A DNA stretch of 43,055 nucleotides from Oscillospiraceae bacterium. GTDB lineage: Bacteria > Bacillota > Clostridia > Oscillospirales > Oscillospiraceae. Below the pieces are notes generated by a model. That model had not been told where the DNA came from. It saw only the letters and a list, made by a program, of their open reading frames with translations, and searched no databases. Both the position numbers and the translations under genes were made by a program. Numbering within the stretch: position 1 is the first letter of the stretch; each line of letters begins with the position of its first letter. The stretch covers positions 1-43,055 of the forward strand of contig JAFSHY010000157.1 of assembly GCA_017440065.1 (NCBI GenBank), read 5' to 3'. Below, piece by piece: positions 148 through 22,873 of the stretch.

Positions 148-1203
148 TCAGTTCAGCTGGCGTCTTAGCTGTTCGGGATTGTCCGCCCGTTCCAGCGCAA
201 TGTCCTTTGTAATATGACCTTTGCGGTAAAGCTCCAGCAGCGCCTGATCCATGGTGTTCATACCTTCCGCACCGCCTGCGGCAATGGCATTGTTGATCTG
301 ATGGTTTTTGTTATCTCGGATCATGCTGCGGATGGCGCTGTTGACATGCATGATCTCAAAGGCGGGGATCATATCACCGTTGACACCGGGCAGCATCTGC
401 TGGGAAACCACGGTCTTCAGCACCATGGAGAGCATCATGCGGATCTGCGCCTGATGGGAAGCGGGGAAGCTGTCAATGATGCGGTCGATGGCATTGACGG
501 CGCCGTTGGTATGCAGCGTGGCAATGATCAGATGGCCTGTTTCAGCCGCGGTGATGGTGGTGCGGATCGTTTCGGGATCGCGCATTTCGCCCAGCAGAAT
601 GACGTCGGGAGCCTGACGCAGGCAGGCGCGAAGTGCAGATAAATAATCCGCCGTATCCACGGAGATCTCTCTCTGGCTGACGATGGAGCGGTGATTCCTG
701 TGCAGGAATTCAATGGGATCCTCCAGCGTGATGATATGGCAATCTCTTGTCTTGTTGATCTCATCGATGAGGCAGGCCTGCGTGGTGGACTTGCCGCTGC
801 CGGCCGTGCCGGTCATGAGGATCATGCCGTGACCCGTCTGCGCGAGATCCATGATCTTGCGGGGAATGTGAATGGCCTGCCAGTCCGGAATACTGAAGGA
901 AACAACACGCACGACCGCCGCCATGGAACCGCGCTGTCGATAGGCGTTGACGCGGAAACGGGCAAGACCGGGAATGGCAAAGGCGAAGTCATCGTCGCCA
1001 CGTTCCAGATAGGCATCCATGGGCCGTTCCGCCAGCGCGTAGATCTCCGTGATCAGCTCTTTGGTCTGGGGAGGAAGAAGGCGGTCTGCTCCGACGCTGC
1101 GGATGCGGCCTTCTTCCTTCTGGCTGACAGGGCCGCCTGCGATAATGAATACGTCCGAGGCTCTTCTGGCTACGGCTTGTTCTAAATATTCGAGAATTTT
1201 CAT
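148..1203 (-). CDS. pilT: Type IV pilus retraction ATPase PilT
   Basis: A hexameric cytoplasmic ATPase of the PilT/GspE superfamily that powers pilus retraction (twitching motility). The 351 residues match the usual PilT length. Visible motifs: Walker A GTAGSGKST (132-140), Asp box at ED 161-162, Walker B VILLGEMRD (from 201) and the His box ending ATLHTN (about 224-233). The start has an AGGAG Shine-Dalgarno. It is the last gene of a minus-strand operon with a PilC-like protein and prepilin-like proteins. No PilB assembly ATPase is present here, so a full pilus would need genes elsewhere; the ATPase could also serve another type IV filament system. The family call is firm; the retraction role is inferred from the family. 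Confidence 0.93.
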   Translation of the reverse strand: MKILEYLEQAVARRASDVFIIAGGPVSQKEEGRIRSVGADRLLPPQTKELITEIYALAERPMDAYLERGDDDFAFAIPGLARFRVNAYRQRGSMAAVVRVVSFSIPDWQAIHIPRKIMDLAQTGHGMILMTGTAGSGKSTTQACLIDEINKTRDCHIITLEDPIEFLHRNHRSIVSQREISVDTADYLSALRACLRQAPDVILLGEMRDPETIRTTITAAETGHLIIATLHTNGAVNAIDRIIDSFPASHQAQIRMMLSMVLKTVVSQQMLPGVNGDMIPAFEIMHVNSAIRSMIRDNKNHQINNAIAAGGAEGMNTMDQALLELYRKGHITKDIALERADNPEQLRRQLN

Positions 1204-1231
1204 AGTAAATGCTCCTGATTTACGGATTTCA

Positions 1232-1630
1232 TCAGCTGTTTCCGTCCCAAAGGTCGAGGCTTTCGTCTGCTTCCCACTGTCCCGTCGGCATTGCCTGCCA
1301 CCGCAGGATCTCCCAGTCTCCGCTCCGCACCTCTACAATCAAAGCCTGCGTGGAGGAAATGGGGCAGGTGTAAGATAGAATATCGCCGTTCTGCGTGACG
1401 CCTTCCGGCATTTCGCCTGTGCGAAGCTGCGCAAGGATCTCTTCCGCCTGCCTGTCAGCCGCGTAGTAGTCCGTCACGGCCTGCAGGCTGGTATCGGAAA
1501 GTCTGCGGTTCGCCTGCACGGTGCTGAGTCCCAAAAGGGCGAATACCGTCAGACACAGTACGGCAAAGATGATCAGCAGGGAACTGCCGCCGATGGCGGG
1601 AAAACGCATCTGCGCATGATCACGATTCAT
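1232..1630 (-). CDS. Small membrane-anchored protein of the pilus operon (prepilin-like)
   Basis: About 132 residues with one N-terminal hydrophobic helix (roughly residues 13-35, GGSSLLIIFAVLCLTVFALL) followed by an extracytoplasmic part, the layout of pilin-like or minor-pilin subunits. No family is recognised with certainty. The ATG at 1630 is preferred over one 33 nt upstream because AGGAGGAGATCC stands directly before it; the gene therefore begins just inside the end of its upstream neighbour (stop at 1620). It sits between pilT and another pilin-like gene, so a role as a minor filament subunit is likely by context. A classical G/E prepilin cleavage motif is not clear. Confidence 0.75.
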   Translation of the reverse strand: MNRDHAQMRFPAIGGSSLLIIFAVLCLTVFALLGLSTVQANRRLSDTSLQAVTDYYAADRQAEEILAQLRTGEMPEGVTQNGDILSYTCPISSTQALIVEVRSGDWEILRWQAMPTGQWEADESLDLWDGNS

Positions 1631-2042
1631 GGATCTCCTCCTGCCAGTAAACGGTGATTTCAAATATGGTTTCGGTTTCGTCGGCTGCCGTGATCCGCGC
1701 GCCGCCCAGGGCGGGGTGTTCCGTCGGCTGCGGCAGGATCAGAACGGTATAGGCTGCGTTTTCGGCTTCGATCGGCTGCCAGTTTGCATCATAGCGCAGC
1801 TGCCAGCCGTCTGCGGTCTCGCGGCCGCCCAAACGTTTGGAGATCTGCGCCGTATCACCGCGGTAAGCTTTCGCGATTTCCGCGGCATTCTGCACCGCTG
1901 CGGCAGCGTTGGCTTGCGTTTCGCATCGGCGGGAGACCTGAGCGGAATAAACGAACACCTGCAGGCAAAGGGCGGCAGCCAGCGCGAAGACCAGCAGCAT
2001 GATCAGCTGCTCCATCAGCGCAAGGGGTGCTTTGTTTTTCAT
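1620..2042 (-). CDS. Prepilin-like membrane protein of the pilus operon
   Basis: 140 residues starting MKNKAPLALMEQLIMLLVFA, with a Glu (residue 11) just before the hydrophobic segment, as in type IV prepilins where a Glu follows the peptidase site. The canonical Gly at -1 is replaced, so PilD-type processing is uncertain. The rest is a soluble domain rich in beta-forming residues. The start has a strong GAAGGAGG signal. It overlaps its upstream neighbour by 4 nt, so the two are probably translationally coupled. Function is inferred only from the hydrophobic N-terminus and position among pil genes. Confidence 0.75.
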   Translation of the reverse strand: MKNKAPLALMEQLIMLLVFALAAALCLQVFVYSAQVSRRCETQANAAAAVQNAAEIAKAYRGDTAQISKRLGGRETADGWQLRYDANWQPIEAENAAYTVLILPQPTEHPALGGARITAADETETIFEITVYWQEEIHES

Positions 2043-2518
2043 GCTTCCGAACCTCCTTCGCTGCGAAGATCCAGATAAACAGTTTTCGCTTCTTCCTCGG
2101 TCAGCTGAAGCTCCGCGCAGAGCAGAGAATCTTCCAGCGTCACCGAGAAGGATTCCGCCGGCAGGATCTTTTCACCGAACTCCAGCGGCAGGGAGATGCC
2201 CGCGGGACATAGCATTTCCCGCAGATAGCCGTCATAGCAATAGACCATCGTGCAGTATTCTGCGCCTTCGATCTCTTCCGTGAGGATGAGAACAGAGGTT
2301 CCCTCTGCTTCATCCGTGCGAACCGTACCGCGGCGATCTGCCTGTCTGACACGGGTCGCGAGATATTGTACGGCGGTTCTTTGGCTGTAGGTCTGCTGAT
2401 CACGGCTTGTCAGCTTCTGTACCGTATCCGCTCCGGAGAGCAGGATCAGAAGCACAGAGACCATGAACACGGCAAATACCAGCAGGACGAACACACCGGC
2501 TAAGTTATTTTTCTTCAT
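2039..2518 (-). CDS. DUF4860-like membrane-anchored protein of the pilus operon
   Basis: 159 residues with a single N-terminal transmembrane helix (about residues 7-28) and an extracytoplasmic domain with the segment TAVQYLATRVRQAD and a C-terminal strand-rich part. This resembles the clostridial DUF4860 family, found next to PilC/PilT genes; the match is from memory. GAGGGT precedes the ATG. The stop overlaps the next gene's start by 4 nt. A minor pilin or assembly accessory role is the best contextual guess. Confidence 0.72.
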   Translation of the reverse strand: MKKNNLAGVFVLLVFAVFMVSVLLILLSGADTVQKLTSRDQQTYSQRTAVQYLATRVRQADRRGTVRTDEAEGTSVLILTEEIEGAEYCTMVYCYDGYLREMLCPAGISLPLEFGEKILPAESFSVTLEDSLLCAELQLTEEEAKTVYLDLRSEGGSEA

Positions 2519-2528
2519 CAGCCGACCC

Positions 2529-2840
2529 TCATTTTTCGAGAACGGTTATATCTGGCATCAGATTTTCTGCAAAGATGGAATAGTTCACGATATAGTGATT
2601 TCTGTCGATCTGTACACCGTAATGCGATTCGAGATAGGCAAGATCGGGCGGGTACACGCCTTCCGCCGCATAGCAGGCCACGGCTGCCCGACGGAGGACA
2701 TCCTCCAAGCGCGCCTTGTCTTCTTCCGAATGACCCTGCGTCAGATTCGAAAGGCCGCCGAGGAAGCAGAGCATCAGCGCGATGGCCAACAGCGGCATCA
2801 GAATGCAGACGAGATAGTTTCGGATCTTATTCTTTTTCAT
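2529..2840 (-). CDS. Small single-pass membrane protein, pilin-like
   Basis: About 103 residues: a basic N-terminus (MKKNKIRN), one hydrophobic helix and a short extracytoplasmic part containing AVACYAAEGVYPPDLAYLES. That Tyr/Pro-rich arrangement resembles the helix-to-head junction of type II/IV pseudopilins. A GTG 9 nt upstream (2849) overlaps the pilC stop and is an alternative start; the ATG at 2840 has GGTGAG at a short spacing. The position directly after pilC suggests a filament subunit or assembly factor. No family assigned. Confidence 0.7.
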   Translation of the reverse strand: MKKNKIRNYLVCILMPLLAIALMLCFLGGLSNLTQGHSEEDKARLEDVLRRAAVACYAAEGVYPPDLAYLESHYGVQIDRNHYIVNYSIFAENLMPDITVLEK

Positions 2841-2845
2841 GGCGC

Positions 2846-3892
2846 TCACCCGATGGAACTCATGATGTTCATCAGCGGGAGCATCACAGAAAGCAGGATC
2901 ACGCCGACCATGCCGGAAGTGATCAGAACCAATGCGGGCTCCAGCTTGCTCACGAGGGCTTCCAGCGCATGGGAAGCTTCTTCCTGCATGCGGCGGGCAA
3001 TGTCATGCATCACGGTATCGCCGTTGCCGCTGCGCAGCGCAAGGGTCAGAAGACGGGCTGCGGCAGGGGAGAGGAGGCCGTTTTCCTCCAGTGCCTTGGA
3101 AAGATCTTCTCCTGCAAGCAGCTGCTCGCGGCAGCGGAGGCATCTCTGCTGCGCCTTGGGAATGTCCTGCAGTAGGGAAGCGGCCAGTTCGGCGGAATCC
3201 TCCACAGGCATACCGCTGCTGAAGCCCATGGCCAGCGCCTGCCCGAAGCGGGCGTTGTTCATCTTTTTGGCAATGCCGCGGTCACCCCAATGCTTTCGCC
3301 AAAGACCCGTGGCCCATTTGCGGAACCGGGTGTTCAGCGTAAAGAATGCGAAGAACAGCAGGAACGCAGCCAGAATGCCGCAAAGATACGGCATCGCGGC
3401 ATCGAGAAACCGGCCGATCATCAAAAGACCGCCGGCAATGCCGGTCAGACGTCCGCCGAGGGAAAGATAAATATCGTTGAATACGGGAAGCACCTTGCTG
3501 AGGAGAATGATGATCACGGAAAGCATCAGAACCAGCAGGATGACGGGATAGGTCAGAGAACTGATGACCTGCCGTTCGGTACGCTCCTTGTTTTCATAGT
3601 AAGCGGAAAGGGCGTTCAGCGTTTCTTCCAGCTTGCCGACTTCCTCGCCGACGCGCAGCAGACCCGTCAGATAGACGGGAAAACAGCCTGCCTCCTCAAA
3701 TGCGCGGAAGAGCATACTGCCCTGATCCACGGTTTTTGCCATGGAATCCAGCATTGCGTGAAGGGCAGGATCTTTTTCTTCTTCGGTCAGCAGGTAAAGT
3801 CCGTCGCCAATGCTGACGCCGGAATGCAGCAGCAGCGCCAGCTCACGGCATAAATCTGCCGTTTCCAGATTGGATAGAACCTTAGAACGCAT
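2846..3892 (-). CDS. pilC: PilC/GspF-type inner-membrane platform protein
   Basis: 348 residues of the T2SSF family. Such proteins form the inner-membrane platform on which the ATPase acts to build or retract a type IV filament. Two repeats of the F domain are visible, each with cytoplasmic helices and a hydrophobic segment (around VISSLTYPVILLVLMLSVII and near the C-terminus). The protein is somewhat shorter than typical PilC (about 400), with a reduced N-terminus. GGAG precedes the ATG. It lies 42 nt after the transglutaminase-like gene with no terminator between them, so they probably share a transcript. Confidence 0.88.
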   Translation of the reverse strand: MRSKVLSNLETADLCRELALLLHSGVSIGDGLYLLTEEEKDPALHAMLDSMAKTVDQGSMLFRAFEEAGCFPVYLTGLLRVGEEVGKLEETLNALSAYYENKERTERQVISSLTYPVILLVLMLSVIIILLSKVLPVFNDIYLSLGGRLTGIAGGLLMIGRFLDAAMPYLCGILAAFLLFFAFFTLNTRFRKWATGLWRKHWGDRGIAKKMNNARFGQALAMGFSSGMPVEDSAELAASLLQDIPKAQQRCLRCREQLLAGEDLSKALEENGLLSPAAARLLTLALRSGNGDTVMHDIARRMQEEASHALEALVSKLEPALVLITSGMVGVILLSVMLPLMNIMSSIG

Positions 3893-3934: not shown

Positions 3935-5080
3935 TCAATAGAAATACTTTTCGGAGTAGTTGGTGCCGTTGCCGATGTACTGCATGATCTGATCGCTCTG
4001 ACCTGCGCTGGATGCAAAGGTGGGATCCAGACGCTGCCATGCAACGCCGTCAAAGAAGATCACGCCGTCGACCCAGCCGGTCTCTTCGGTCCATACGCTG
4101 ATCCAGGCGTGGTAGGCGCCGCTGGCATAACCGAATACCATTTTGCAGGGAATGCCCTGACTGCGCAGCATACCGGTCATCAGAGAGGCATAGTCAAAGC
4201 AGATGCCGGTCTTGGTTTCCATGATGGTATCCAAATCGGGAATGTAGCCGCTCTGTACAGTGGAAGCTTTGTAATTGTCATAGGTCAGTTCGGAAACCAC
4301 GTAGTTGTAGATCGCTTCCACCTTGCCCAAGGGGGCGCTGATGCCCTGAGTCAGCTCTCTTGCCTTTTCCACCGCAAGGCTGGACGCGGAATAGTTGACG
4401 TACTGGTTGGGACGAAGGAAGGGCGCGAACTCATCCGCCAGCGTAACGGTGTGGGAAGCGGCGGCAATGAGAGCATACTGATTGCCGGAGATATTTTCAA
4501 ACACCTTGAACTGGTAAGTGCCGTTGCCGATGGAAAGGGGGAAGACCGTCCATTCCTGCTTGGGCAGGTTGTAGGTATAGGTGGTGGAACCGGCAGTGAT
4601 CTGAACCTTCAGCTTTTTGGAGGTCTGACCGGGGTAGTAGATCATGATGTAACCGTCTTCGGTGTTGGAATAGTCGATGGTCACAATTCCGTTATCCGCC
4701 ACCAGTTCACCGGAAGCCACTGGCTCCAGAAGATCGGGAACGGCAGGCATCGGAGGCTCAGCCAGCAGCGCGACCTCCTGCTCGGGAACCGCAATCTGGA
4801 GCTTGACGACATCGACAAAGACCTCGGCCGGATCTTCGGGCAGCGATTCCTCCGGTGCGGGTTCTTCCTCCGCGGGATCATTCTCCGCGGGCTGAGGCGC
4901 AGGCTCCTGCGCGTCCTGATCCGTCACGGGAGCTTCCGCAGGCGCTTCGGGCGTGGTTGCCTCGGGAGAAGCTTCTGCCTGTGAGTCTTCGGTCGGCTCC
5001 AGCGGAACGACCTTGGCACCGCAGCCCGTAAGGGATAACAGTAATATGATAAAGCAGATCCATGCAGTAAATTTACGCAT
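3935..5080 (-). CDS. Transglutaminase-like domain lipoprotein
   Basis: 381 residues. The N-terminus is a lipoprotein signal with lipobox LTGC (Cys20), so it should be anchored on the outer face of the membrane. A long Glu/Pro/Ala-rich linker follows (about 25-95), then a beta-rich region and a C-terminal transglutaminase-like fold. The catalytic triad appears intact: Cys294 in TGICFDYA, His324 in AYHAWISV, Asp352 in RLDPTF. Bacterial members are mostly proteases or amidases of the papain-like superfamily rather than true cross-linkers, so activity is undecided. It has its own promoter and heads the pilus-type operon. It lies directly downstream of the thioester adhesin array. Confidence 0.88.
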   Translation of the reverse strand: MRKFTAWICFIILLLSLTGCGAKVVPLEPTEDSQAEASPEATTPEAPAEAPVTDQDAQEPAPQPAENDPAEEEPAPEESLPEDPAEVFVDVVKLQIAVPEQEVALLAEPPMPAVPDLLEPVASGELVADNGIVTIDYSNTEDGYIMIYYPGQTSKKLKVQITAGSTTYTYNLPKQEWTVFPLSIGNGTYQFKVFENISGNQYALIAAASHTVTLADEFAPFLRPNQYVNYSASSLAVEKARELTQGISAPLGKVEAIYNYVVSELTYDNYKASTVQSGYIPDLDTIMETKTGICFDYASLMTGMLRSQGIPCKMVFGYASGAYHAWISVWTEETGWVDGVIFFDGVAWQRLDPTFASSAGQSDQIMQYIGNGTNYSEKYFY

Positions 5081-5211: not shown

Positions 5212-5247
5212 TAAAAAAGGAGCCGAAGCGATTTGCTTCAGCTCCTT
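5212..5247 (-). terminator. Intrinsic terminator of thioester adhesin gene 1
   Basis: Minus strand: AAGGAGCTGAAGC, loop AAATC, GCTTCGGCTCCTT, then a run of T residues. It begins 34 nt after the stop codon at 5281. Confidence 0.9.
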
Positions 5248-5280
5248 GGGTTTGAGGATCATATTTCTTTCTGAAGGATG

Positions 5281-7791
5281 TCAGAAAGTTTCATGCGCAT
5301 ACTTTTTGCTGCGGATCTTGACTGCGGTGAGAGCGAGACCTGCAACGAGAACGAGAGCGAACCAGATGAAGGTGTTGCTGCCGGTCTTGGGAGCATCGGC
5401 CAGAGGCACGGGCTCCTCTTCGATAACGATAGCATCATCCTCTTCCACGTTCACAACGAACACGGGAGGTTCGGGCTGATCTTCATCGGGAACAACGGGA
5501 GGATCTTCGGGATCTTCGGGTTCTTCTTCGATGTCAGCGGGGTCGTATTCGTCATGCCAATGGCGCTGAGCAACGACCTTGTTTTCTTCGTCCACAGAGA
5601 AGGAAACGGTAACGCCCATGGAAATATCCACTTCGCGTTCGCCCTGTGCGATACCGACCATGGTCTGAGAATCGTCGCGTCCGTCCACGGATTCATAGAC
5701 ATAAACGCCGTGTTCCAGATACTGGGTGCCTTCCAGACGGAGATCGAAGTTGAAATCCTTGTTCTCGCTGAGCTTCAGGCCGCTGATGGTGTAGCTGCCG
5801 TCCTCGTTGGGCGCAATGGTATCCCAGCTTTCGCCTTCTTCGTTGGTGCCGGCCAGACGTCTGACGACGGTCACTTCCTTGCCATCCATATCGGTGTACT
5901 TGAGCTGCATCAGCAGATCATCGTTGGGGCCGGGAATGAAGGCGAGGGTGAAGTTCATGGCGGTCTCATAGATGCCGTTGGTCACGGTATTGCCGTTTTC
6001 GTCGGTCACTTCCTCTTCATCGACCTTGTCACCCACGGTGAGGGACATATCTTCGATGAAGTTCTGCTCGTTGATGATGATGGTGGATTCCTCATCGGTA
6101 TCCAGATTGATCAGCCACAGATACAGGAAGTCAACTCTGGCGCTGCCGTAATCGTCCATGCATTCGCCGTTGGTGAACTTGCCGGTCTCATTGGCGTAAT
6201 GGTTCCACTTACGGCCATCGGGGTCGAGGATGATGGAGCCGTCCTTGCCGGTCTGTACGTTGTAGCTGCCGTTGGAGTAGCTCCAGATGGCGGCCTGTGT
6301 GGCAAGCAGGGCTTCACCTTCGGTCAGACCGTCGATGAGTTCCAACATGGACTTGGTTTCCATCACAGGATTGCCTTCCTCATCCAGAACAGGCTTGCCG
6401 TCTTCGCCGAGAACAGGGAACTCCATAGTGGTGTTTTCCATCTCGCCGTTGTTGATGGCGTCGCGCAGGTTCTGCTTCATCAGCTCGAGACTGCCCAGTT
6501 CGTATTCGCCGTTTTCATCGGGAATATCGCTGGTGCCCCAGTAGCCGTTCATCACGATGGAGCGGACATGATCCTGAGATTCCTCGCTGGCATAGTAGTC
6601 GCAGTCTTCCAGATTGGAGAAGGTGTACCACTTGCCCTTGTCTGCGCCGGTGAGCATGTCGCAGCAATAGCCGAAGACAGTGTTGCCGGCTTCGTCCATC
6701 AGCATGAAGGTGGTGGGGCGACTGCCGTTGTAATAGTCATAGGCAGGCATAAAGGTGATCTCCGCGGGAAGCTCGGTGGTGACATAGCCGTCAGCCACGG
6801 GCTTGCCGGTGGTCACGTCTTCGCCCTGTTTTCTTCTGATGCACTTGATGATGGGATCGCCGTTTTCATCCTTGGCATAGATGGGCTCGCCGTTCTCATC
6901 CAGCTTGACATTGCCGTTTTCGTCGAGTTCCTTTTCGTATTCGACATAGACGGCGGCAGTCCAGTAAATGCTGTGTTCGCCGGTACCGACATAGCGGAAA
7001 TCAGCGTCTTCGGGCATAATGCTGTTGCCGTTCTCGTCGACCCACTTGGAGGGGTCGCCGTTGCTCATGGAGAGCCAGTTGCGGTCGAACACACCGATCT
7101 TGCCGTAATTGTCATCCAGCTTGCCGTCGGACTTGTATACCGCATTGTCGGTCTCGTCGTAAACGGGGGCGACACCGATCAGACCGGAGGCTTCATCGGA
7201 GGAATTGCCGGTGGAGGAGTCGTGGATGGTGATTACGGCATCACTGGTGGTGACGGTAACTTCCTTTTCGACGGTCACGGTGGTTTCCGTGTAGTCGTAG
7301 ACCAGATCATCGTCGCCTTCCTTGACGTCGCCGGTCACAGTCGTGACGGTCTGCATATCACCGGAGGTGGTCTCTTCGCCGGGAATGATGCCCACAGTAA
7401 CATCCTTTACTTCGGGAGCTTCGATGCCTTCGGGGATCTCATCCCAGGTCAGAGTCTCGCCGCCGTCCTTTTCCCACTTTTCGGTGGTTTCGGTGGTGGC
7501 TCCGGAGGTGGTGGAAACGGTGGTCTCGGAGGACGTTTCGTGGTACTCGACGTTCGCACCGGTTTCATCGGTACCGGACTTCACGGTGTCGATGGTGACG
7601 GTCACTGTGGTGGTGTCTTCATCGACGGTGGTGGTCGTGGTAGTGGTGACGACGGTGGTAACGCCGCCCTCGGTGGTGGTTTCGGTGGAGGTGGTTTCTG
7701 TTACATCTGCTGCCAGAATCTGCATGGGTAATGCAGAAGCAAACATACACAGAACCAAACAAATGCTGATAATTCTTCTAAACTTTGCCAT
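5281..7791 (-). CDS. Cys-Gln thioester bond-forming surface protein, copy 1
   Basis: An 836-residue secreted surface protein. Order: signal peptide (1-28), Thr-rich stretch (about 30-110), thioester domain (TED/TQXA family) with Cys376 in GYCCD and Gln499 in ATQAAIW, a beta-rich domain, a Pro/Glu-rich stalk, APKTG (800-804), a hydrophobic helix and basic RSKK. TED proteins form an internal Cys-Gln thioester that can bind host or matrix amines covalently. The residue after the thioester Cys is also Cys, unlike the two paralogues. DENG-type repeats punctuate the pre-thioester region. The ATG at 7791 is chosen over an in-frame one 84 nt upstream because AAAGGAG precedes it and the signal peptide begins there; the upstream one lies in the riboswitch. 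Predicted to be controlled by c-di-GMP. Confidence 0.9.
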   Translation of the reverse strand: MAKFRRIISICLVLCMFASALPMQILAADVTETTSTETTTEGGVTTVVTTTTTTTVDEDTTTVTVTIDTVKSGTDETGANVEYHETSSETTVSTTSGATTETTEKWEKDGGETLTWDEIPEGIEAPEVKDVTVGIIPGEETTSGDMQTVTTVTGDVKEGDDDLVYDYTETTVTVEKEVTVTTSDAVITIHDSSTGNSSDEASGLIGVAPVYDETDNAVYKSDGKLDDNYGKIGVFDRNWLSMSNGDPSKWVDENGNSIMPEDADFRYVGTGEHSIYWTAAVYVEYEKELDENGNVKLDENGEPIYAKDENGDPIIKCIRRKQGEDVTTGKPVADGYVTTELPAEITFMPAYDYYNGSRPTTFMLMDEAGNTVFGYCCDMLTGADKGKWYTFSNLEDCDYYASEESQDHVRSIVMNGYWGTSDIPDENGEYELGSLELMKQNLRDAINNGEMENTTMEFPVLGEDGKPVLDEEGNPVMETKSMLELIDGLTEGEALLATQAAIWSYSNGSYNVQTGKDGSIILDPDGRKWNHYANETGKFTNGECMDDYGSARVDFLYLWLINLDTDEESTIIINEQNFIEDMSLTVGDKVDEEEVTDENGNTVTNGIYETAMNFTLAFIPGPNDDLLMQLKYTDMDGKEVTVVRRLAGTNEEGESWDTIAPNEDGSYTISGLKLSENKDFNFDLRLEGTQYLEHGVYVYESVDGRDDSQTMVGIAQGEREVDISMGVTVSFSVDEENKVVAQRHWHDEYDPADIEEEPEDPEDPPVVPDEDQPEPPVFVVNVEEDDAIVIEEEPVPLADAPKTGSNTFIWFALVLVAGLALTAVKIRSKKYAHETF

Positions 7792-7833
7792 TATTTCGTA
7801 CTCCTTTACTGTAATATTAAAAGGATCGAAATA
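7792..7833 (-). promoter_or_regulatory. Candidate translational expression platform, copy 1
   Basis: The 3' strand of riboswitch helix P1 (TATTTCG, plus 7827-7833) is complementary over 7 bp to CGAAATA (plus 7792-7798), which lies between the Shine-Dalgarno and the ATG. The two pairings cannot coexist. Ligand-stabilised P1 would leave the start site free, which predicts an ON switch. CCTTT/AAAGG in the linker could additionally mask the Shine-Dalgarno in this copy. Inferred by eye. Confidence 0.5.
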
Positions 7834-7923
7834 CTGGCGGCCGGGCTGCCGTGGCATTGCTGCGTTAGGCCCCATGGCTTTGCGTCCCGTCCTTTCGGAC
7901 GGTTTGCCCTTTTCAGGTATTTC
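7828..7923 (-). promoter_or_regulatory. c-di-GMP-I (GEMM-I) riboswitch, copy 1
   Basis: A 96-nt aptamer closed by P1 GAAATAC/GTATTTC. On the minus strand it shows the class hallmarks: AGGGCAAACC, a GAAA tetraloop hairpin (CCGTCC/GGACGG), GGGACGCAAAGC, then GGCCTAA, and a second arm with GGCAGCCCGG. These match the c-di-GMP-I class, which binds cyclic di-GMP at the three-way junction. It lies 36 nt before the adhesin start codon. Confidence 0.93.
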
Positions 7924-8031
7924 TGATTAAGTAACTGAATTTAGGATCTTTGGTTCTTAATCAAAAAGTGATCGCGCGTCTTTCGGGATCCTTGCAGCTC
8001 CGGCTGCAGCTCGAATCCGGAAAGAAGAACC
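7924..8031 (-). promoter_or_regulatory. Conserved leader structure upstream of riboswitch, copy 1
   Basis: Three helices can be drawn. H1: GGTTCTT (8025-8031) with AAGAACC (7952-7958). H2, nested: an arm at 8013-8024 with one at 7980-7991 (one mismatch). H3: TGATTAAG (7956-7963) with CTTAATCA (7924-7931). H1 and H3 share AAG and exclude each other; H3 abuts riboswitch P1. An AGGAGG precedes H1 but no start codon follows it. I recognise no known RNA class. Confidence 0.55.
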
Positions 8032-8076
8032 TCCTCTCTGACAAATGAAGTAGAAGAAATAAAAATCCTCATTGAA

Positions 8077-8105
8077 ATATTAGCACAAGAGGAAGGATAT
8101 GTCTA
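8077..8105 (-). promoter_or_regulatory. Sigma-A-type promoter of adhesin gene 1
   Basis: Minus strand: TAGACA (-35, 8100-8105), exactly 17 nt, TAATAT (-10, 8077-8082) with an upstream TGTGC. It predicts a 5' leader of about 280 nt. Elements and spacing match those of copy 2. Confidence 0.75.
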
Positions 8106-8409
8106 GAACAAAATGAAAAAATAGTTTCAAAATAGTTACAATTTTAAAGGCGCGTTGTTGTTGAGATTTACCAATATACTCTGTGCGTCGAGTATAGAAG
8201 CAGGATCAGAAAGAAGGTTAAAATATGAAGCAATACTCAAAATATATATATTATTCAGAACTATTCGGTTCGGTATTCGGGATTTTAATTTTTGATAGCG
8301 ATAAGGTTCATTTTTTGAAGCAAGGACGGGAAGCAGGGGAATTTGAGGGAAAAGAAACAGAATTCAAAAGAAAGTTACAAATTGAAAATAAAAATGTGAG
8401 AGATTAAGA
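8106..8409. other. Intergenic region upstream of adhesin gene 1 promoter
   Basis: AT-rich spacer. It holds a 36-bp block (8107-8142) identical to one upstream of copy 2 and a 17-bp site (8158-8174) found 53-54 bp from the -35 box in all three copies. A 60-codon reading frame (8225-8407) with an AAGAAGG-like signal runs into the neighbouring terminator; its composition looks non-coding and I do not call it. Confidence 0.6.
8158..8174 (-). promoter_or_regulatory. Candidate regulator-binding site, copy 1
   Basis: TTGTTGAGATTTACCAA on the plus strand, an imperfect inverted repeat starting 53 bp beyond the -35 box. Related sequences occur at the same distance upstream of the other two adhesin promoters. 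The binding factor is unknown. Confidence 0.4.
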
Positions 8410-8439
8410 ACGGGACTGAAGCGTTTGCTTCAGCCCCGT
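8410..8439 (-). terminator. Intrinsic terminator of adhesin gene 2
   Basis: Minus strand: ACGGGGCTGAAGC, loop AAAC, GCTTCAGTCCCGT, followed by TCTTAAT. The stem is strong but the T-tract is short. Confidence 0.75.
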
Positions 8440-8473
8440 GATGATGAGGGTTTTATTCTTCGGTTTGGATTTG

Positions 8474-10645
8474 TCAGAAAGTATCGTGCTGACGCTTTTT
8501 GCCGCAGAACTTGACAGCTGCGAGGCCGAAGGCTGCAGCCAGAATGATCGCGAACCAAACGAAGGTGTTGCTGCCGGTCTTGGGAGCTTCGGCCAGAGGC
8601 ACGGGCTCTTCTTCGATGATGATAGCATCATCCTCTTCCACGTTCACAACGAACACGGGAGGTTCGGGCTGCTCTTCGGGATCAGCAGGATCCTGTTCGG
8701 GAACTTCGGGCTCCTCTTCTTCCACGATGGGATCGTAGTTGCTCTCCCAGGAGGCATCAACGATCACGTTGCGGGTTTCGTCCACTTCGAAGCGGATGGC
8801 GTAGCCCTTGGTGACATTGACTTCCTTTTCGCCTTCCAGAATGGAAACGAAGGTCTGGGAAGAAACATTGTTACGAACTTCAGAGGTGAAGATGTAAACG
8901 CCCTGTTCCAGATGCTGGGTACCGACCAGCTTCAGATCGAAGTTGAAATCGGAGTTTTCAGCAAGGGTCAGATTCTGCAGGGTGTAGATGCCGGTTTCGG
9001 CGTCAAAGACCACATTGTTGAAATTGTTCTGAGCGTCTTCTTCGGCATTGCCGCCGGCGATTCTGCCCTGAGCAACCACAACAGGGTTACCGTTTTCGTC
9101 GAGGCTGACGACCTGAACGACCAGATCATCGTTTGCGTTGTCGGGGGTAACGACCAGGGCAAAGTTCAGGGAAACGTCGTAAACGTCGTTGTCCTTGTCT
9201 TCGTCGGCGTTTTCCGCGGCGTCCGCAACCTGATCACCAACGGTGATGCTCATGCTGTCTTCCACGATGAAGGAATCGGCGTCGATGACTTCGTTGTAAT
9301 CAGGCTTTTCCATGGGGTCGAGACCCATCAGATAGTTGAACACGGCGAGTGCGTTTCTGCGGTCTTCTTCGGAGGGATCCACACGCAGGCTCTTGTTTGC
9401 TGCAAAGCCCTTGGTGATCAGACGTTCCGTATCGACATAAGTGCCGTTGGTGTTCTCGTTGGCATGCATCCAGATGGCACTCTGGGTAGCGTTCAGAGCC
9501 TGACCTTCGGTCAGAGAATCGATCTCTTCCACGGTGATACCGGTGAGAATGCCGGCTTCCACAGCGGCCTTCATATCTTCCTTCAGCTTCATAAGGCTGC
9601 CGGTCTGATAGGCGCCGTTTTCATCGGGGGTGTTGGTGGTGCCCCAATAGCCGTTCAGGGCAATGGCGCGGATGTAGGAAGCGGATTCTTCGTCATAGTA
9701 GCCTGCGTCTTCCAGCGCGTCGATGCGATACCAGTAGTTGTCAATGCCGCTGGTGTCGATGTCAGCGCAGTAGGCGAGGAACTTTTCTTCGTCGGTAACG
9801 ACCTTGTTATCGTCGCTGTTGGGGTCGAAGAAGGGATCGTATTCCAGAACAAACTGAAGAGCGCCGGTTCTGCCATTGTTTTCGGTGGCTGCACCCCATT
9901 TGCTCATCTGGCCGAAGCCGGTGAAGCGGTAATCGTAGCCGCCTTCGGGAGCTGCAACGGGAGTGGTGTCTTCAAAGCCGCCGGAATAGGTGTATTCGGG
10001 AAGAAGCTGCTCGTCCTTTACATCGCCGTCGCCATAAGCTTCTCTGTCGGGCATGAGGGGAGTCATCTCGCTGCTGCCGGTCACTTCGATCACGGTCTCG
10101 TTTTCCGTGGCGCTAGCGGTCACGGTACGGTCGGTGGTCGTGGTGGTGACGGTAGTGGTGGTGGACTTGCCGGTCTCATCCGTAACAGTCTCGACGTCGG
10201 TGTCGGTTTCGGTATCGGAGGCGGTGCCGGTGGATTCGGCGCCGGGAGTCAGAACGACGGTAACGGTGGGAAGACCGGTGTGCTCGGGAGTAACATCTTC
10301 TTCCTTGGACTGGGTCTCGGAACCGTTCACGATCTGGCTTTCCGCAACCACAACGCCGTCCTTGTTGGTGACGGTGGTGGTGGTGGAGTTCTCGGTGCCG
10401 CTGACGACGGTGCCGTCTTCGGCGGTGCCTTCGGTGGTCTTGTTGACTTCCACGATCACGGTGACCTTACCGGTCTCTTCATCGGTAGAGGTGGTGGTAG
10501 TGGTAGTCGTGGTGGTGGTGATACCGCCTTCGGTGGTGATATCGGTGGATTCGGTCACGTCTGCTGCCAGAGCCTGCATGGGTAATACAGTAACAAACAT
10601 GCACAGAACCAAACATAAACTGATAACTCTTCTAATATTTGCCAT
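8474..10645 (-). CDS. Cys-Gln thioester bond-forming surface protein, copy 2
   Basis: A 723-residue paralogue of the flanking adhesins. Signal peptide at 1-28, Thr-rich and Val-rich N-terminal stretch, TED domain with Cys293 in AYCAD and Gln388 in ATQSAIW, the conserved segment NGYWGT between them, a beta-rich domain, a Glu/Pro stalk, APKTG (687-691), a hydrophobic helix and a basic tail. It would be wall-anchored by a sortase and could form a covalent bond to a target amine through its thioester; partner unknown. The Cys-Gln distance is shorter than in copy 1 because the DENG-type insertions are absent. The start has AAAAGGAG. It has its own promoter, c-di-GMP-I riboswitch and terminator. 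Confidence 0.9.
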   Translation of the reverse strand: MANIRRVISLCLVLCMFVTVLPMQALAADVTESTDITTEGGITTTTTTTTTTSTDEETGKVTVIVEVNKTTEGTAEDGTVVSGTENSTTTTVTNKDGVVVAESQIVNGSETQSKEEDVTPEHTGLPTVTVVLTPGAESTGTASDTETDTDVETVTDETGKSTTTTVTTTTTDRTVTASATENETVIEVTGSSEMTPLMPDREAYGDGDVKDEQLLPEYTYSGGFEDTTPVAAPEGGYDYRFTGFGQMSKWGAATENNGRTGALQFVLEYDPFFDPNSDDNKVVTDEEKFLAYCADIDTSGIDNYWYRIDALEDAGYYDEESASYIRAIALNGYWGTTNTPDENGAYQTGSLMKLKEDMKAAVEAGILTGITVEEIDSLTEGQALNATQSAIWMHANENTNGTYVDTERLITKGFAANKSLRVDPSEEDRRNALAVFNYLMGLDPMEKPDYNEVIDADSFIVEDSMSITVGDQVADAAENADEDKDNDVYDVSLNFALVVTPDNANDDLVVQVVSLDENGNPVVVAQGRIAGGNAEEDAQNNFNNVVFDAETGIYTLQNLTLAENSDFNFDLKLVGTQHLEQGVYIFTSEVRNNVSSQTFVSILEGEKEVNVTKGYAIRFEVDETRNVIVDASWESNYDPIVEEEEPEVPEQDPADPEEQPEPPVFVVNVEEDDAIIIEEEPVPLAEAPKTGSNTFVWFAIILAAAFGLAAVKFCGKKRQHDTF

Positions 10646-10686
10646 TATTTCGCTCTCCTTTTATTGTTTCAAGAAAGATCGAAATA
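10646..10686 (-). promoter_or_regulatory. Candidate translational expression platform, copy 2
   Basis: As in copy 1, TATTTCG of the P1 3' strand (10680-10686) can pair with CGAAATA (10646-10652) directly before the ATG. The linker between them differs from copy 1 while both halves of the pairing are kept. Confidence 0.5.
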
Positions 10687-10776
10687 CTGGCAGCCGGGCT
10701 GCCATCGCGTATGAACATTAGGCCCCATGGCTTTGCGTCCCGCCCTTTCGGACGGTTTGCCCTTTTCATGTATTTC
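10681..10776 (-). promoter_or_regulatory. c-di-GMP-I (GEMM-I) riboswitch, copy 2
   Basis: A 96-nt aptamer with the same closing helix and conserved core as copy 1 (GGGCAAACC, GAAA tetraloop hairpin, GGGACGCAAAGC, GGCCTAA, GGCAGCCCGG). The tip of the second arm differs in sequence (GTTCATACGCGAT on the minus strand). It lies upstream of adhesin gene 2. Confidence 0.93.
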
Positions 10777-10890
10777 TGATTAAGTAACGATGGAAAGATT
10801 GCTGGATATCGGTTCTTAATCAAATGAATGATCGCACACTTTCCGGGTTGGGAATGCTCCGGCAAGTTCCTGAAATCGGAAAGAAGAACC
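10777..10890 (-). promoter_or_regulatory. Conserved leader structure upstream of riboswitch, copy 2
   Basis: The same architecture as copy 1: H1 GGTTCTT (10884-10890) with AAGAACC (10811-10817); H2 CTTTCCG (10877-10883) with CGGAAAG (10839-10845), a perfect 7 bp; H3 TGATTAAG (10815-10822) with CTTAATCA (10777-10784). Loops differ from copy 1 while helices persist. Confidence 0.55.
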
Positions 10891-10934
10891 TCCTCTCTGA
10901 CAAATGATTATGAAGAAACAAAATCCTCAAAGGT

Positions 10935-10963
10935 ATATTAGCACAAACGGAAATAATTGTCTA
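10935..10963 (-). promoter_or_regulatory. Sigma-A-type promoter of adhesin gene 2
   Basis: Minus strand: TAGACA (10958-10963), 17 nt, TAATAT (10935-10940), preceded by the 36-bp block at 10965-11000 that is identical to the one upstream of copy 1. Confidence 0.75.
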
Positions 10964-11283
10964 TAACAAAATGAAAAAATAGTTTCAAAATAGTTACAAT
11001 GTATTCTCGGGCTCTTTGTTGAGAATAACCAACCTTGCACCTGCAAAGCGGATCCTGTCCGTATGGCAATCTCTATCCGGAATTCGGCGATTCTGTATGG
11101 TTTGCTCACGAAGTTCGATGAATTAGGGATTTTGAGCGCGGTTTTAAATATTATGCGGGTTGCACTTTAAATATTGAACAGAATGCAAAAAGGAAAGGGG
11201 AGAGGCGGCGGATCGCTACAAAACTAGGCAAAAGGTTACAAAACGCAATGTTAAGATATGTTAATATGGAACGCAAAAAAGAA
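10964..11283. other. Intergenic region between adhesin genes 2 and 3
   Basis: No credible gene. It holds the upstream block shared with copy 1 (10965-11000), the conserved 17-bp site (11016-11032) and AT-rich spacer up to the terminator of adhesin gene 3. A 60-codon frame at 10927-11109 overlaps the promoter and is not called. Confidence 0.6.
11016..11032 (-). promoter_or_regulatory. Candidate regulator-binding site, copy 2
   Basis: TTGTTGAGAATAACCAA on the plus strand, starting 53 bp beyond the -35 box, the same distance as in copy 1. It differs from copy 1 at only three positions while flanking sequence is unrelated. Confidence 0.4.
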
Positions 11284-11313
11284 CGCGGGACTGAAGAGAT
11301 CTTCAGTCCCGCG
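11278..11313 (-). terminator. Intrinsic terminator of adhesin gene 3
   Basis: Minus strand: a 13-bp perfect stem CGCGGGACTGAAG / CTTCAGTCCCGCG followed by TTCTTTTTT. It starts about 35 nt after the stop codon. Confidence 0.92.
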
Positions 11314-11348
11314 ATTGAGGGATTTTTTATTCTTCGTGAATCGATTGA

Positions 11349-13688
11349 TCAGAAAGCTTTGTTGGAGTGCTTCTTGGTGAAGACTCTGACAACGGCGAGG
11401 CTCATGGCTGCGGCCAGAACGATCACGAACCAGATCACGGTGTTGCTGCCGGTCTTGGGAGCGTCTGCCAGAGGTACAGGTTCGTCTTCGATCACGACCT
11501 CGTCGTCTTCAATGTTCACTTCGAAGACAGGAGGGGGAGGAGGAAGCTCTTCCTCTTCCTGGGGAGGGAAGAAGTAGGTGATGGGATCGCCTTCATCCTG
11601 CCATACGCGCTCGGTGGCGATAACGGTGTCATCCACATTCAGCTCGAACTTGATCTCCATGGTAACGTCAACAGCGCGCTCACCGCTGGAAACACCGACC
11701 AGAGTCTGAGAGCTGACTTCTTCACCGCTGTCTTCCGTACGGATCTCGGAGGAATAGAGGTAAACGCCTTCCTTCAGGTTCTGAATACCGGAAAGGTTCA
11801 GACGGAAGTTCTGCTCGCCTTCGATCATGGTCAGACCTTCGAAGCAGTAGTTGCCTTCTGCATCGGGAACCAGAACGTTTTCGCCTTCGGCGGCAACGCC
11901 TGCGATGCGGCCGGTGGCCAGCACATTGCCCTTGGCGTCAACGACGGAAACAACGAGATCATCACCGTTTTCGGTGCTGGGAGTAACAACGAGAGCGAAG
12001 GTCAGGTTGGTGACATAGGCATCGTTGGTATCGTCAGCGTCTTCGTTGTTTTCGTGCTCTTCAGCCTTTTCGACGACGGTAACAGACATATCACGAATGA
12101 AGTTATCCGGATTGATGATGGTGTCGGCGGTGGTGCCTTCCAGCTCGGTGCCTTCCAGGTTCATCAGGTAGGTGTAGTACTTGAACATGACCTGTACTTC
12201 ATCTTCCTTGTCGGCGGGAACATTGCCGGGACCCCAGTTGGAATAGTGGGAGTTGATGAACTGAATGCTGCTCATCTTGTTGCTGCAGGACCAGATGGCC
12301 ATCTGCGTAGCGGTCAGAGCGGCGCCGTCGGTGAGAGAAGCCAGTTCTTCAGCGGTGAAGCCGGCTTCTGCCAGAGTTTCCTTCAGAGCTTCCAGGCTGC
12401 CGAAACCGCTCGCAGTGCCCCAGTAGCCGTTGTTGGCGATGGAGCGGATCTGCTTGGCTTCTTCCTCGGAGTAGTAGGTGGCATCTTCCAGGTTTTCCAC
12501 GTTGTAGCCGTAGCTGTCCTGTGTGGGAGTGCTGACGTCAGCGCAGTAGGTTGTCACAACGTTGCCGTTGTCATCGACCAGGATGAACTGCTGAGGGCCT
12601 GCCCAAACGCCGGTGAAGGACTTGTCGCCGTTGAGTTCATGGATCCATTCGCCGTCCTCGTACCAGCCTTCGACATCCAGACTGTTGTTGTAGTTGTCAA
12701 AGCGGTGCAGGTAAACGGTGTTGCCGTCGGGATCGACGGAGGTGCGCTCTTCCTTGAAGATGCGGTCGCCGTTGACGTCGAGGATGTAGCCTTCTTCGTC
12801 GGTGACGTACTTGCCGTTTTCATCGGTGGCGATGGTAGCCTTGGTCTCTTCGGTCAGCCACTTCACATAGTACCAGGTGATGTTGTTGTTCTTGATATAG
12901 GCGTTTTCGCCGTACATCTCGAGCTTGCCTGCTTCGTCCAGAGGCTCGGTGTAGACAACGGAGGGAACAAACTTACTGGTGTTGCCGGTGCCGACGAAGG
13001 TGTAGCCGTAGCTGTCATCCTTGCTGCCTTCGGGAGCGGTGACGGTGCCTTCGTAACCGGGCAGATACATCTCATCAGCCTGACCGACATAGGTGAGATC
13101 ATTGTCATCGGTGGGGGTGGTGTCGCTGGAGACATGATCCATGCTGGTGTTTTCGGTATCGATGTTCTCGGTGTAGATGACATCCGTGGTGCCGACGGTC
13201 ACGCTGCCCTGCTGGATCACGGTGGAGGTGGTGCCATCGGGATTGGTGGTCTCGGTACCTGCTTTATCACCGACGGTAACGGTGTTTTCCTGACCCTTCT
13301 GATCGGGGACAGTCACAGTCACGTTTTCGGGGGAAGTGGTTTCCTCGGAGAACTCGCTGCCGTTTTCGGTCCAGTTTTCCGTGATAAGGAAGCCGTCGTC
13401 CTTCTTCACGAAGGAAGAGGTCTCGGTGCGGGTCACTTCACTGCCGGCAACAACTTCGCCGTTCTTGTCGGTAGTGGTGGAATTCTGGATCTCCACGACG
13501 ACTTTGGTGGTGCCGTCTTCGCTCTTGGAGGTGGTGGTGGTGGTTTCTACGGTGGTGGTGAGATCACCGTTCACGGTGGTCTCGGTGGTGGTAACGGTCT
13601 CGTCTGCCGCCAGAGCCTGCAGGGGAATTACAGTAACAAACAGACAGAGGACCATACACAATGCGAAAATTCTTCTAATATTTGCCAT
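11349..13688 (-). CDS. Cys-Gln thioester bond-forming surface protein, copy 3
   Basis: A 779-residue member of the same trio and the first of the three in genomic order of transcription. Signal peptide at 1-28, Thr-rich N-terminal stretch, TED domain with Cys382 in TYCAD and Gln462 in ATQMAIW, NGYWGT between them, a beta-rich domain, a short poly-Pro stalk (EELPPPPPVFEVN), APKTG (743-747), a hydrophobic helix and a basic tail. DENG/DEEG loops occur before the thioester Cys. AAAAGGAG precedes the ATG. The domain order is identical to the other two but the pre-thioester part is divergent, so ligand specificity may differ. Riboswitch, leader and promoter are as for its paralogues. Confidence 0.9.
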   Translation of the reverse strand: MANIRRIFALCMVLCLFVTVIPLQALAADETVTTTETTVNGDLTTTVETTTTTSKSEDGTTKVVVEIQNSTTTDKNGEVVAGSEVTRTETSSFVKKDDGFLITENWTENGSEFSEETTSPENVTVTVPDQKGQENTVTVGDKAGTETTNPDGTTSTVIQQGSVTVGTTDVIYTENIDTENTSMDHVSSDTTPTDDNDLTYVGQADEMYLPGYEGTVTAPEGSKDDSYGYTFVGTGNTSKFVPSVVYTEPLDEAGKLEMYGENAYIKNNNITWYYVKWLTEETKATIATDENGKYVTDEEGYILDVNGDRIFKEERTSVDPDGNTVYLHRFDNYNNSLDVEGWYEDGEWIHELNGDKSFTGVWAGPQQFILVDDNGNVVTTYCADVSTPTQDSYGYNVENLEDATYYSEEEAKQIRSIANNGYWGTASGFGSLEALKETLAEAGFTAEELASLTDGAALTATQMAIWSCSNKMSSIQFINSHYSNWGPGNVPADKEDEVQVMFKYYTYLMNLEGTELEGTTADTIINPDNFIRDMSVTVVEKAEEHENNEDADDTNDAYVTNLTFALVVTPSTENGDDLVVSVVDAKGNVLATGRIAGVAAEGENVLVPDAEGNYCFEGLTMIEGEQNFRLNLSGIQNLKEGVYLYSSEIRTEDSGEEVSSQTLVGVSSGERAVDVTMEIKFELNVDDTVIATERVWQDEGDPITYFFPPQEEEELPPPPPVFEVNIEDDEVVIEDEPVPLADAPKTGSNTVIWFVIVLAAAMSLAVVRVFTKKHSNKAF

Positions 13689-13736
13689 TATTTCGTTCTC
13701 CTTTTCTCAATAGAAAGTATAAGAAAGATCGAAATA
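13689..13736 (-). promoter_or_regulatory. Candidate translational expression platform, copy 3
   Basis: TATTTCG (13730-13736) of the P1 3' strand is complementary to CGAAATA (13689-13695) next to the ATG. The linker is longer and unrelated in sequence to the other two copies, yet both halves are kept. Confidence 0.5.
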
Positions 13737-13826
13737 CTGGCGGCCGGGCTGCCATTGCGGGTATGCGTTAGGCCCCTTAGCTTTGCGTCCCGTCCTTTCG
13801 GACGGTTTGCCCTTTTCAGGTATTTC
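13731..13826 (-). promoter_or_regulatory. c-di-GMP-I (GEMM-I) riboswitch, copy 3
   Basis: The 96-nt aptamer closes with GAAATAC/GTATTTC and carries GGGCAAACC, the GAAA tetraloop hairpin, GGGACGCAAAGC, GGCCTAA and GGCAGCCCGG on the minus strand. A few arm positions differ from the other copies (AAGCTAAGG rather than AAGCCATGG). Confidence 0.93.
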
Positions 13827-13943
13827 TGATTAAGTAACGTGATAAAAGTGAGATATCCGGTTCTTAATCAATTTGGTAACTGATTATCTCTTTCCGAACT
13901 CCCGAAACGCTCTGGTTTTCCGAAGAGACGGAAAGCAAGAACC
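13827..13943 (-). promoter_or_regulatory. Conserved leader structure upstream of riboswitch, copy 3
   Basis: H1 GGTTCTT (13937-13943) with AAGAACC (13859-13865); H2 CTTTCCG (13929-13935) with CGGAAAG (13890-13896); H3 TGATTAAG (13863-13870) with CTTAATCA (13827-13834). The interior sequence is unlike the other copies, so the helices are the conserved part. Confidence 0.55.
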
Positions 13944-13989
13944 TCCTTTCTGACAAACGGTTTAGAAGAAATAAAAATCCTCGTAAAGC

Positions 13990-14018
13990 ATTCTAACATA
14001 TTAAATAAAGATTGTCCA
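13990..14018 (-). promoter_or_regulatory. Sigma-A-type promoter of adhesin gene 3
   Basis: Minus strand: TGGACA (14013-14018), 17 nt, TAGAAT (13990-13995). It is divergent from the lipoprotein promoter at 14125-14153. Confidence 0.72.
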
Positions 14019-22526: not shown

Positions 22527-22530
22527 GTGT

Positions 22531-22873
22531 GCGATCGGGTCTGTAAGCCGGGTTCTGTAATCGACAGTCATCTATCTAGACGCACCGTTGCCGATGCGTT
22601 CCAGCCACCTTCTCGGGAACTGCCGGGCCGGCATTGTTCCCTCTGCGGTGTTGCTCCGGATAGAGTTTACAGCACCGGACTGTCTCCAGCCGGTGGGTGA
22701 GCTCTTACCTCGCCTTTCCACCCTTACCTCCGAAGAGGCGGTATATCTCTGTTGCACTTTTCCGCAAGTCGCCTTGGGCGGGCGTTACCCGTTATCCTTG
22801 CCCTGTGGAGCCCGGACTTTCCTCACAGAGGACCTTTCGGTACACTCCGCGCGACTGTCCGACCCGGTCGCGG
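22531..22873 (-). ncRNA. rnpB: RNase P RNA, bacterial type A
   Basis: The catalytic RNA of ribonuclease P, which trims tRNA 5' ends. On the minus strand the universally conserved elements are readable: GAGGAAAGTCCGGGCTCC near the 5' end, the ACAGAGATATACCGCC segment, and GATAGATGACTGTCGATTAC with AGAACCCGGCTTACAG near the 3' end. Helix P1 forms between GCGACCGGGTC and GACCCGATCGC with one mismatch, which sets the ends to within a few nt. Length is about 340 nt. Reading frames through this stretch are artefacts. Confidence 0.97.

Follow-up and report, generated by a model that had tools for sequence, protein, structure and literature searches.

Three neighbouring genes on the minus strand of the genome of an uncultured, gut-type or commensal-type Oscillospirales bacterium each encode a thioester-domain protein and each carry one riboswitch in the leader, which raises the question of whether covalent attachment is here gated by a second messenger, and in which direction. 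All positions refer to the window, the whole 43,055-nt stretch of DNA that was analysed. With a probability of roughly 0.7, we read the locus as three separately transcribed, sortase-anchored thioester adhesins, each switched on at translation by a c-di-GMP-I riboswitch.

The genes are tedA (11349..13688), encoding a secreted thioester-domain protein of 779 aa with a signal peptide, a Thr-rich N-terminal third and a C-terminal APKTG anchor, and its paralogues tedB (8474..10645, 723 aa) and tedC (5281..7791, 836 aa), all on the minus strand, as are the features given below. Because the tedC start in the list of open reading frames (7875) falls within its aptamer, we placed the true ATG at 7791, homologous to the starts of tedA and tedB. 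Promoters predicted by consensus match were observed at 13990..14018 for tedA (TGGACA-17-TAGAAT, with TG preceding the second hexamer) and at 10935..10963 and 8077..8105 for tedB and tedC, respectively (both TAGACA-17-TAATAT with TG). Intrinsic terminators lie 3' of tedA (11284..11313) and tedC (5217..5247), and an inverted repeat with a T-rich tail, read by eye, lies 3' of tedB (8406..8440). Judged from the sequence, the three genes are probably transcribed separately, each from its own predicted promoter.

All three products begin with a signal peptide (MANIRR/MAKFRR...LAA) and end with PLA(D/E)APKTGSN followed by a hydrophobic stretch and a K/R-rich tail. These are the sorting motif, hydrophobic stretch and basic tail of a sortase substrate, and they bear out the sorting-type C terminus that an earlier note on this DNA had described. 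Anchor models scored below cut-off against the whole proteins (TIGR01167, 10.6-13.2 bits; NF033073, 33-42 bits), and in the genome scan TIGR01167 was above cut-off (17.7-18.1 versus 15.9).

A complete GEMM-I aptamer, as the earlier note had proposed, was observed in each leader. Including the outer P1 helix (GAAAUAC/GUAUUUC in tedA), the aptamers span 13731..13826 for tedA (model match 13735-13820), 10681..10776 for tedB (10685-10770) and 7828..7923 for tedC (7832-7917). Scoring with RF01051 under stricter filters gave 69.6, 75.3 and 74.0 bits, respectively, against a cut-off of 35. The cmscan output named RF03167 for all three, at 65-70 bits and E-values of about 1e-14 that leave no concern over chance, apparently because clan overlaps are ranked on E-value; the RF01051 bit scores are higher in every case. 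We take a G at the A47 position as defining RF03167 (c-di-GMP-I-GGC), based on the model consensus and the naming of the variant. The window aptamers instead carry the canonical A in 3/3 cases, so we read them as ordinary c-di-GMP-I and ruled out the ligand of the GGC variant. With Vc2 numbering assigned by hand, the ligand-contact bases G20, A47 and C92 (equivalence as in PMC11218506) were found in all three aptamers, within AGGGC, GACGCA and GCCAG contexts, and the aptamers presumably bind their ligand in vivo.

The direction of the switches is suggested by what follows each aptamer. Its 3' strand, GCCAGUAUUUCG, is complementary to CGAAAUAAUGGC, which spans the start codon of tedA (13684..13695), and elements of the same type cover the starts of tedB (10641..10652) and tedC (7787..7798). 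This pairing competes with helix P1, and a translational ON switch is therefore predicted. The 5' strand of P1, GAAAUAC, is a near-copy of the sequence before the start, so that both compete for one partner. In the absence of ligand, GCCAGUAUUUCG, including the ligand-contacting C92 position, would leave P1 and pair with CGAAAUAAUGGC, hiding the start codon together with some of the Shine-Dalgarno region; with c-di-GMP bound, P1 would be held and the start codon freed. Each riboswitch thus probably uncovers its start codon at high c-di-GMP.

We compared the native duplex between aptamer 3' end and start region with controls in 20 leaders, which had been chosen for ATGGC and whose common second codon therefore does not count as separate evidence. 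The native duplex was better than shuffles in 18 of the 20 and, set against 89 natural start regions, outdid 95% or more of them in 16, including all five leaders of the host genome; three (L049, L078, L087) were poor against natural start regions and L112 was marginal. Pairing was kept despite other P1 sequences, as in L010 (GCCUGAUUUCAAUC/GAUUGUAAUCAUGGC) and L112 (GCCUGGCUUCAAUC/GAUUGAAACCAUGGC), and related leaders of other genera likewise retain the pairing with differing sequences. Folded without ligand, the sequestered state lay 3-9 kcal/mol below the P1 state, and enforcing P1 raised the accessibility of the AUG from about 0.35 to 0.54-0.86 in the five host leaders. For tedB and tedC, most of the Shine-Dalgarno sequence was still paired when P1 was modelled as formed, so that the start may be only partly released.

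That residual pairing would also suit switches that are OFF, or that act mainly on transcription or mRNA decay, the proteins then being made at low c-di-GMP as with the class I switches of C. difficile motility genes, which are transcriptional OFF switches (PMC11477304). We consider this unlikely, given that the conserved alternative pairing opposes P1, the helix that the ligand stabilises, that the adhesins Bacillus Cap and C. difficile CD3246/CD2831 are ON-switched, and that the 34-44 nt separating P1 from the AUG contain no terminator in any of the host genome's five leaders. Such a terminator is apparently present at many related loci. From the pairing, we infer the ON direction for the array.

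Farther upstream, the leaders share a conserved element, TTTGTCAGARAGGAGGTTCT, at 13938..13957, 10885-10904 and 8026-8045, with four copies genome-wide, every one in leaders of these genes. We tried this element and its flanks as a second RNA element and rejected it, RNAalifold showing a double change in 1 of 21 pairs; the tedB leader also folded no better than shuffles (z -1.06).

Turning to the proteins, PF08341 scored 40.6 bits in tedA (12162..12554), 26.6 in tedB (9323..9775) and 29.5 in tedC (6247..6669), the profile matches all being above the gathering score of 22. Together with the signal peptides, these matches uphold the earlier description of three consecutive secreted thioester-family proteins on one strand. 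The Cys motif reads YCAD, YCAD and YCCD (Phi position A or C) and the helix motif ATQ(M/S/A)AIW, with Cys382 and Gln462 of the TQxAIW helix both inside the tedA match. The earlier note had taken these as the Cys and Gln of the thioester, and only its Cys stands: in thioester domains the bond-forming Cys sits in [YFL]C-Phi-zeta and the TQxxPhiW Gln is not bond-forming, the thioester-forming Gln being that of a PhiQ-zeta-Phi-Phi motif downstream, in the last strand (PMC4450167, PMC6194298). The likely thioester Gln by sequence is the invariant one in SQT(L/F/M)V, at the beginning of the last long predicted strand (Gln661 in tedA, codon 11706..11708); a second invariant Gln, Gln636, is a possible alternative.

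The Ted proteins might belong to PF08341 by sequence and yet have lost or not use the thioester, serving as ordinary non-covalent surface proteins or cell-wall stalks. A Foldseek search of the PDB with two AlphaFold models (pLDDT 71 and 83) returned unrelated top matches and no solved thioester domain, and a Thr-rich stretch of about 260-380 residues precedes the domain, placing it mid-protein, whereas it is N-terminal in most thioester adhesins. A profile search of the PDB gave weak matches only, to the 'surface anchored protein' chains 5a0g and 5a0d (E 0.27-0.32), the former being the C. perfringens CpTIE thioester domain (PMC6194298). Against such a loss, the Y-C-x-D Cys, the TQxxPhiW helix and the downstream Q-T-Phi-V strand are conserved across 15 diverse homologous domains, with the Cys and candidate Gln invariant, and the elements are predicted to follow one another as Cys strand, helices, beta-sandwich insert and long terminal hairpin, in agreement with the class II description (PMC6194298). 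We therefore regard a missing thioester as improbable. Since no solved thioester domain came back in the searches with the structure models, we infer the covalent chemistry of the Ted proteins, both thioester formation and target, from their sequences. A plasmid search with the tedA domain gave no match.

The pairing of switch and adhesin extends beyond the window. The assembled host genome, an incomplete MAG (86% complete), contains exactly five RF01051 loci, scored under the stricter filters, and five PF08341 loci, and in 5/5 the aptamer lies upstream of the thioester gene on the same strand. All four LPXTG-type anchors detected are on thioester proteins. The single sortase detected is divergent from a gene for a GGDEF-EAL-GGDEF protein, about 190 nt away, with an HD-GYP gene nearby, and no PilZ protein was found in this 86% complete genome. 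In other MAGs, too, aptamers lie upstream of homologous thioester genes; the closest thioester-domain relatives of tedA (L049, L050) lack a detected aptamer. A relative on contig C54, of about 1,800 residues with GBS104-like Ig domains, differs from the array in leader and domain lineage and has the same platform. The least probable account is that the array is a recently duplicated cassette whose shared leader merely came along with the copying, so that the one-to-one pairing would reflect ancestry and not selection for shared control. In its favour, four copies have a DNA identity of 71-90% in the aptamer-platform, signal peptide and C terminus, with middles that share 30-39% of protein residues over the alignment. 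Against it, the domains are deeply diverged, that of tedA clustering with those from other genomes and not with tedB/tedC (support 100/99), and the C54 platform is the same despite its different leader and lineage.

Gating of attachment by c-di-GMP, which the earlier note had proposed, is supported, but as a concept is not new. In C. difficile, a class II c-di-GMP riboswitch in the leader controls each of two sortase-type surface adhesins, CD3246, which has a thioester domain, and CD2831; both are made at high c-di-GMP (PMC11477304). These use a class II aptamer as a transcriptional ON switch, whereas the Ted array uses class I with predicted start-codon release, forms a tandem set and has every thioester gene found in its host genome switched. 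The Bc2 riboswitch of B. thuringiensis is a class I c-di-GMP ON switch before Cap, a wall-anchored adhesin (PMC4933901), but works by an anti-terminator and controls a single gene for a collagen-binding protein. The TIE proteins (thioester, isopeptide, ester domain adhesins: SfbI, CpTIE, BaTIE, SaTIE, EfmTIE86) share PF08341 with [YFL]C and TQxxPhiW, a secretion signal and a wall anchor; the Ted proteins differ in their mid-protein thioester domain, and no isopeptide or ester stalk was detected in the tedA-C products. New here are the 5:5 pairing of aptamers and thioester genes, the anchors all on these proteins, the sortase beside a GGDEF-EAL gene and the start-codon platform.

A rise in c-di-GMP would lead the cell to make several surface proteins whose thioester domains have diverged; the one detected sortase would anchor these, and they could then attach covalently to an amine-bearing target. 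Covalent attachment is difficult to reverse, so cells would be expected to gate it tightly. More tentatively, the locus may belong to a dedicated adhesion circuit, in which every recognisable c-di-GMP effector is a thioester-adhesin riboswitch, the sole sortase is tied to a gene for a c-di-GMP enzyme, and the aptamer's ligand-contacting strand buries the start codon through a platform found in surface-protein genes of several families of the order. This simple platform also occurs in related genera, at MucBP, VWA and other surface-protein genes, and would account for the Met-Ala beginning of these proteins. All thioester adhesins detected, and likewise all detected sortase-anchored proteins, appear to answer to a single messenger by way of separate RNA switches, which makes the array a small, testable model for c-di-GMP output without protein effectors.

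Three consecutive minus-strand genes, tedA (11349-13688), tedB (8474-10645) and tedC (5281-7791), encode proteins that each matched the thioester-domain profile PF08341 above its gathering score, in agreement with the earlier note, and that have a signal peptide and C terminus in common. A separate sigma-70-like promoter, in which a TG precedes the second hexamer, lies before each gene, and each also has a terminator (tedA, 11313-11284; tedB, 8440-8406, read by eye; tedC, 5247-5217; all minus strand), so they look like three transcription units rather than one operon. The listed tedC reading frame starts at 7875, within the aptamer, and the start homologous to those of tedA and tedB is at 7791; the first 28 residues of the listed frame are therefore translated riboswitch and leader. 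First-start ORF callers would lengthen tedC in this way (7792-7875, minus strand), and calls at several homologous loci were likewise extended. The gene directly after the array is predicted to encode a lipoprotein that contains a transglutaminase-like domain (3935-5080, minus strand), and type II secretion or type IV pilus-like genes (T2SSE, T2SSF, DUF4860; 148-3892) are found downstream on the same strand. The window also contains a class A RNase P RNA (22528-22870, minus strand).

The c-di-GMP-I aptamer proposed for each leader was recovered in all three, where RF01051 (cut-off 35 bits) scored 69.6-75.3 bits. The label given by cmscan was the GGC variant, RF03167, but each aptamer scored higher with RF01051, and the position of Vc2 A47, a G in the GGC model, was aligned to an A in all three. 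From sequence, we read these aptamers as canonical c-di-GMP-I. A 20-nt leader element, with no supported RNA structure, was confined within the genome to four leaders (window 13938-13957, 10885-10904 and 8026-8045; L057:4289-4308).

The window makes up one of the 177 contigs of a metagenome-assembled genome of 1.93 Mb (85.7% complete), in which two further thioester genes were observed on contigs C39 and C54. The five RF01051 loci and five PF08341 loci of this genome are paired one to one. All four LPXTG-type anchors detected are carried by thioester proteins; the genome anchor scan detected none on the C54 protein, which has about 1,800 residues and GBS104-like Ig domains. Only one sortase was detected (C14:7503-8399); its gene and a divergently oriented GGDEF-EAL-GGDEF gene, in which one GGDEF motif is intact, are neighbours, with a gene for a GGDEF/HD-GYP protein nearby. 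No PilZ domain was found in the genome by a search that detected its positive controls, and no c-di-GMP-II switch by a search run without one.

In all five leaders of this genome the aptamer 3' end, GCC(A/G)GU(A/G)UUUCG, shows complementarity to CGAAAUAAUGGC, a stretch that includes the start codon and an Ala second codon. Among 20 leaders with ATGGC starts, drawn from several families, the native duplex was better than shuffles in 18 (p < 0.05), and in 16 it outperformed 95% or more of 89 natural start regions. Since ATGGC was the basis for selecting these leaders, the common second codon adds no independent support for the putative platform, whereas the extended pairing and the changes in its sequence do. 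In folding models, enforcing helix P1 raised AUG accessibility at a predicted cost of 3-9 kcal/mol, a difference that could be overcome by ligand binding or by folding during transcription. In a second subgroup (L053, L055, L056), CUUUGC/GCAAAG was instead read by eye near the Shine-Dalgarno sequence. The start-codon platform also occurs at other genes for surface proteins, of which some contain MucBP, VWA or Big_2 domains, and it precedes secreted surface proteins at loci of related genera (L009, L010, L087, L089, L109, L111, L112, L113, L115).

In published domains the thioester bond joins the Cys of [YFL]C-Phi-zeta to the Gln of PhiQ-zeta-Phi-Phi, and neither the Gln nor the Trp of TQxxPhiW is essential (PMC4450167, PMC6194298). 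The proposed motif YC[A/C]D ... ATQxAIW was upheld in part: Cys382 and Gln462 of tedA were invariant across 15 homologous domains, but Gln462 is the non-essential Gln of TQxxPhiW. Gln636 and Gln661 were also invariant; Gln661 fits PhiQ-zeta-Phi-Phi and is placed where the final long strand begins in an 83-pLDDT model. Solved thioester domains were not among the Foldseek matches to this predicted structure. We infer the thioester fold and bond in these proteins.

Across 394 genomes of the order, the thioester domain was above cut-off in 88 and c-di-GMP-I was observed in 104, and reading the two lists together placed both close on one contig in at least three (G000, G215, G361). G215, probably the same genome as L054, has a two-gene thioester array with one aptamer per gene. 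An aptamer precedes a homologous thioester gene in the related assemblies L049, L051, L053, L054, L055 and L056, and L049 additionally holds the closest tedA relative, a gene that has no detected aptamer and whose protein begins MKN, not MA. Together, these observations make the link recurrent but not general. A tandem pair of c-di-GMP-I aptamers was observed upstream of a single thioester gene at L056:4631-4876. In two genomes thioester genes have the same two companions, a BTAD-type transcriptional activator (58% identical) and a small conserved protein that matches no Pfam family; in a third genome this small protein again lies next to a thioester gene (L058:11710-12951 and 13005-13418; L049:528-2393; L050:12509-12916).

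The system resembles the c-di-GMP-switched thioester adhesin already known in C. difficile (PMC11477304) and, in its class I switch, the Bacillus adhesin, where the switch is ON (PMC4933901). No tandem set of thioester genes, each with a switch of its own, was found in the literature searched, with most subscription papers outside its scope. Among the copies, the leader, signal peptide and anchor were far more similar than the protein middles, and the tedA domain clustered with domains from other genomes. Such comparisons suggest a conserved control-and-anchor cassette surrounding diversified domains.
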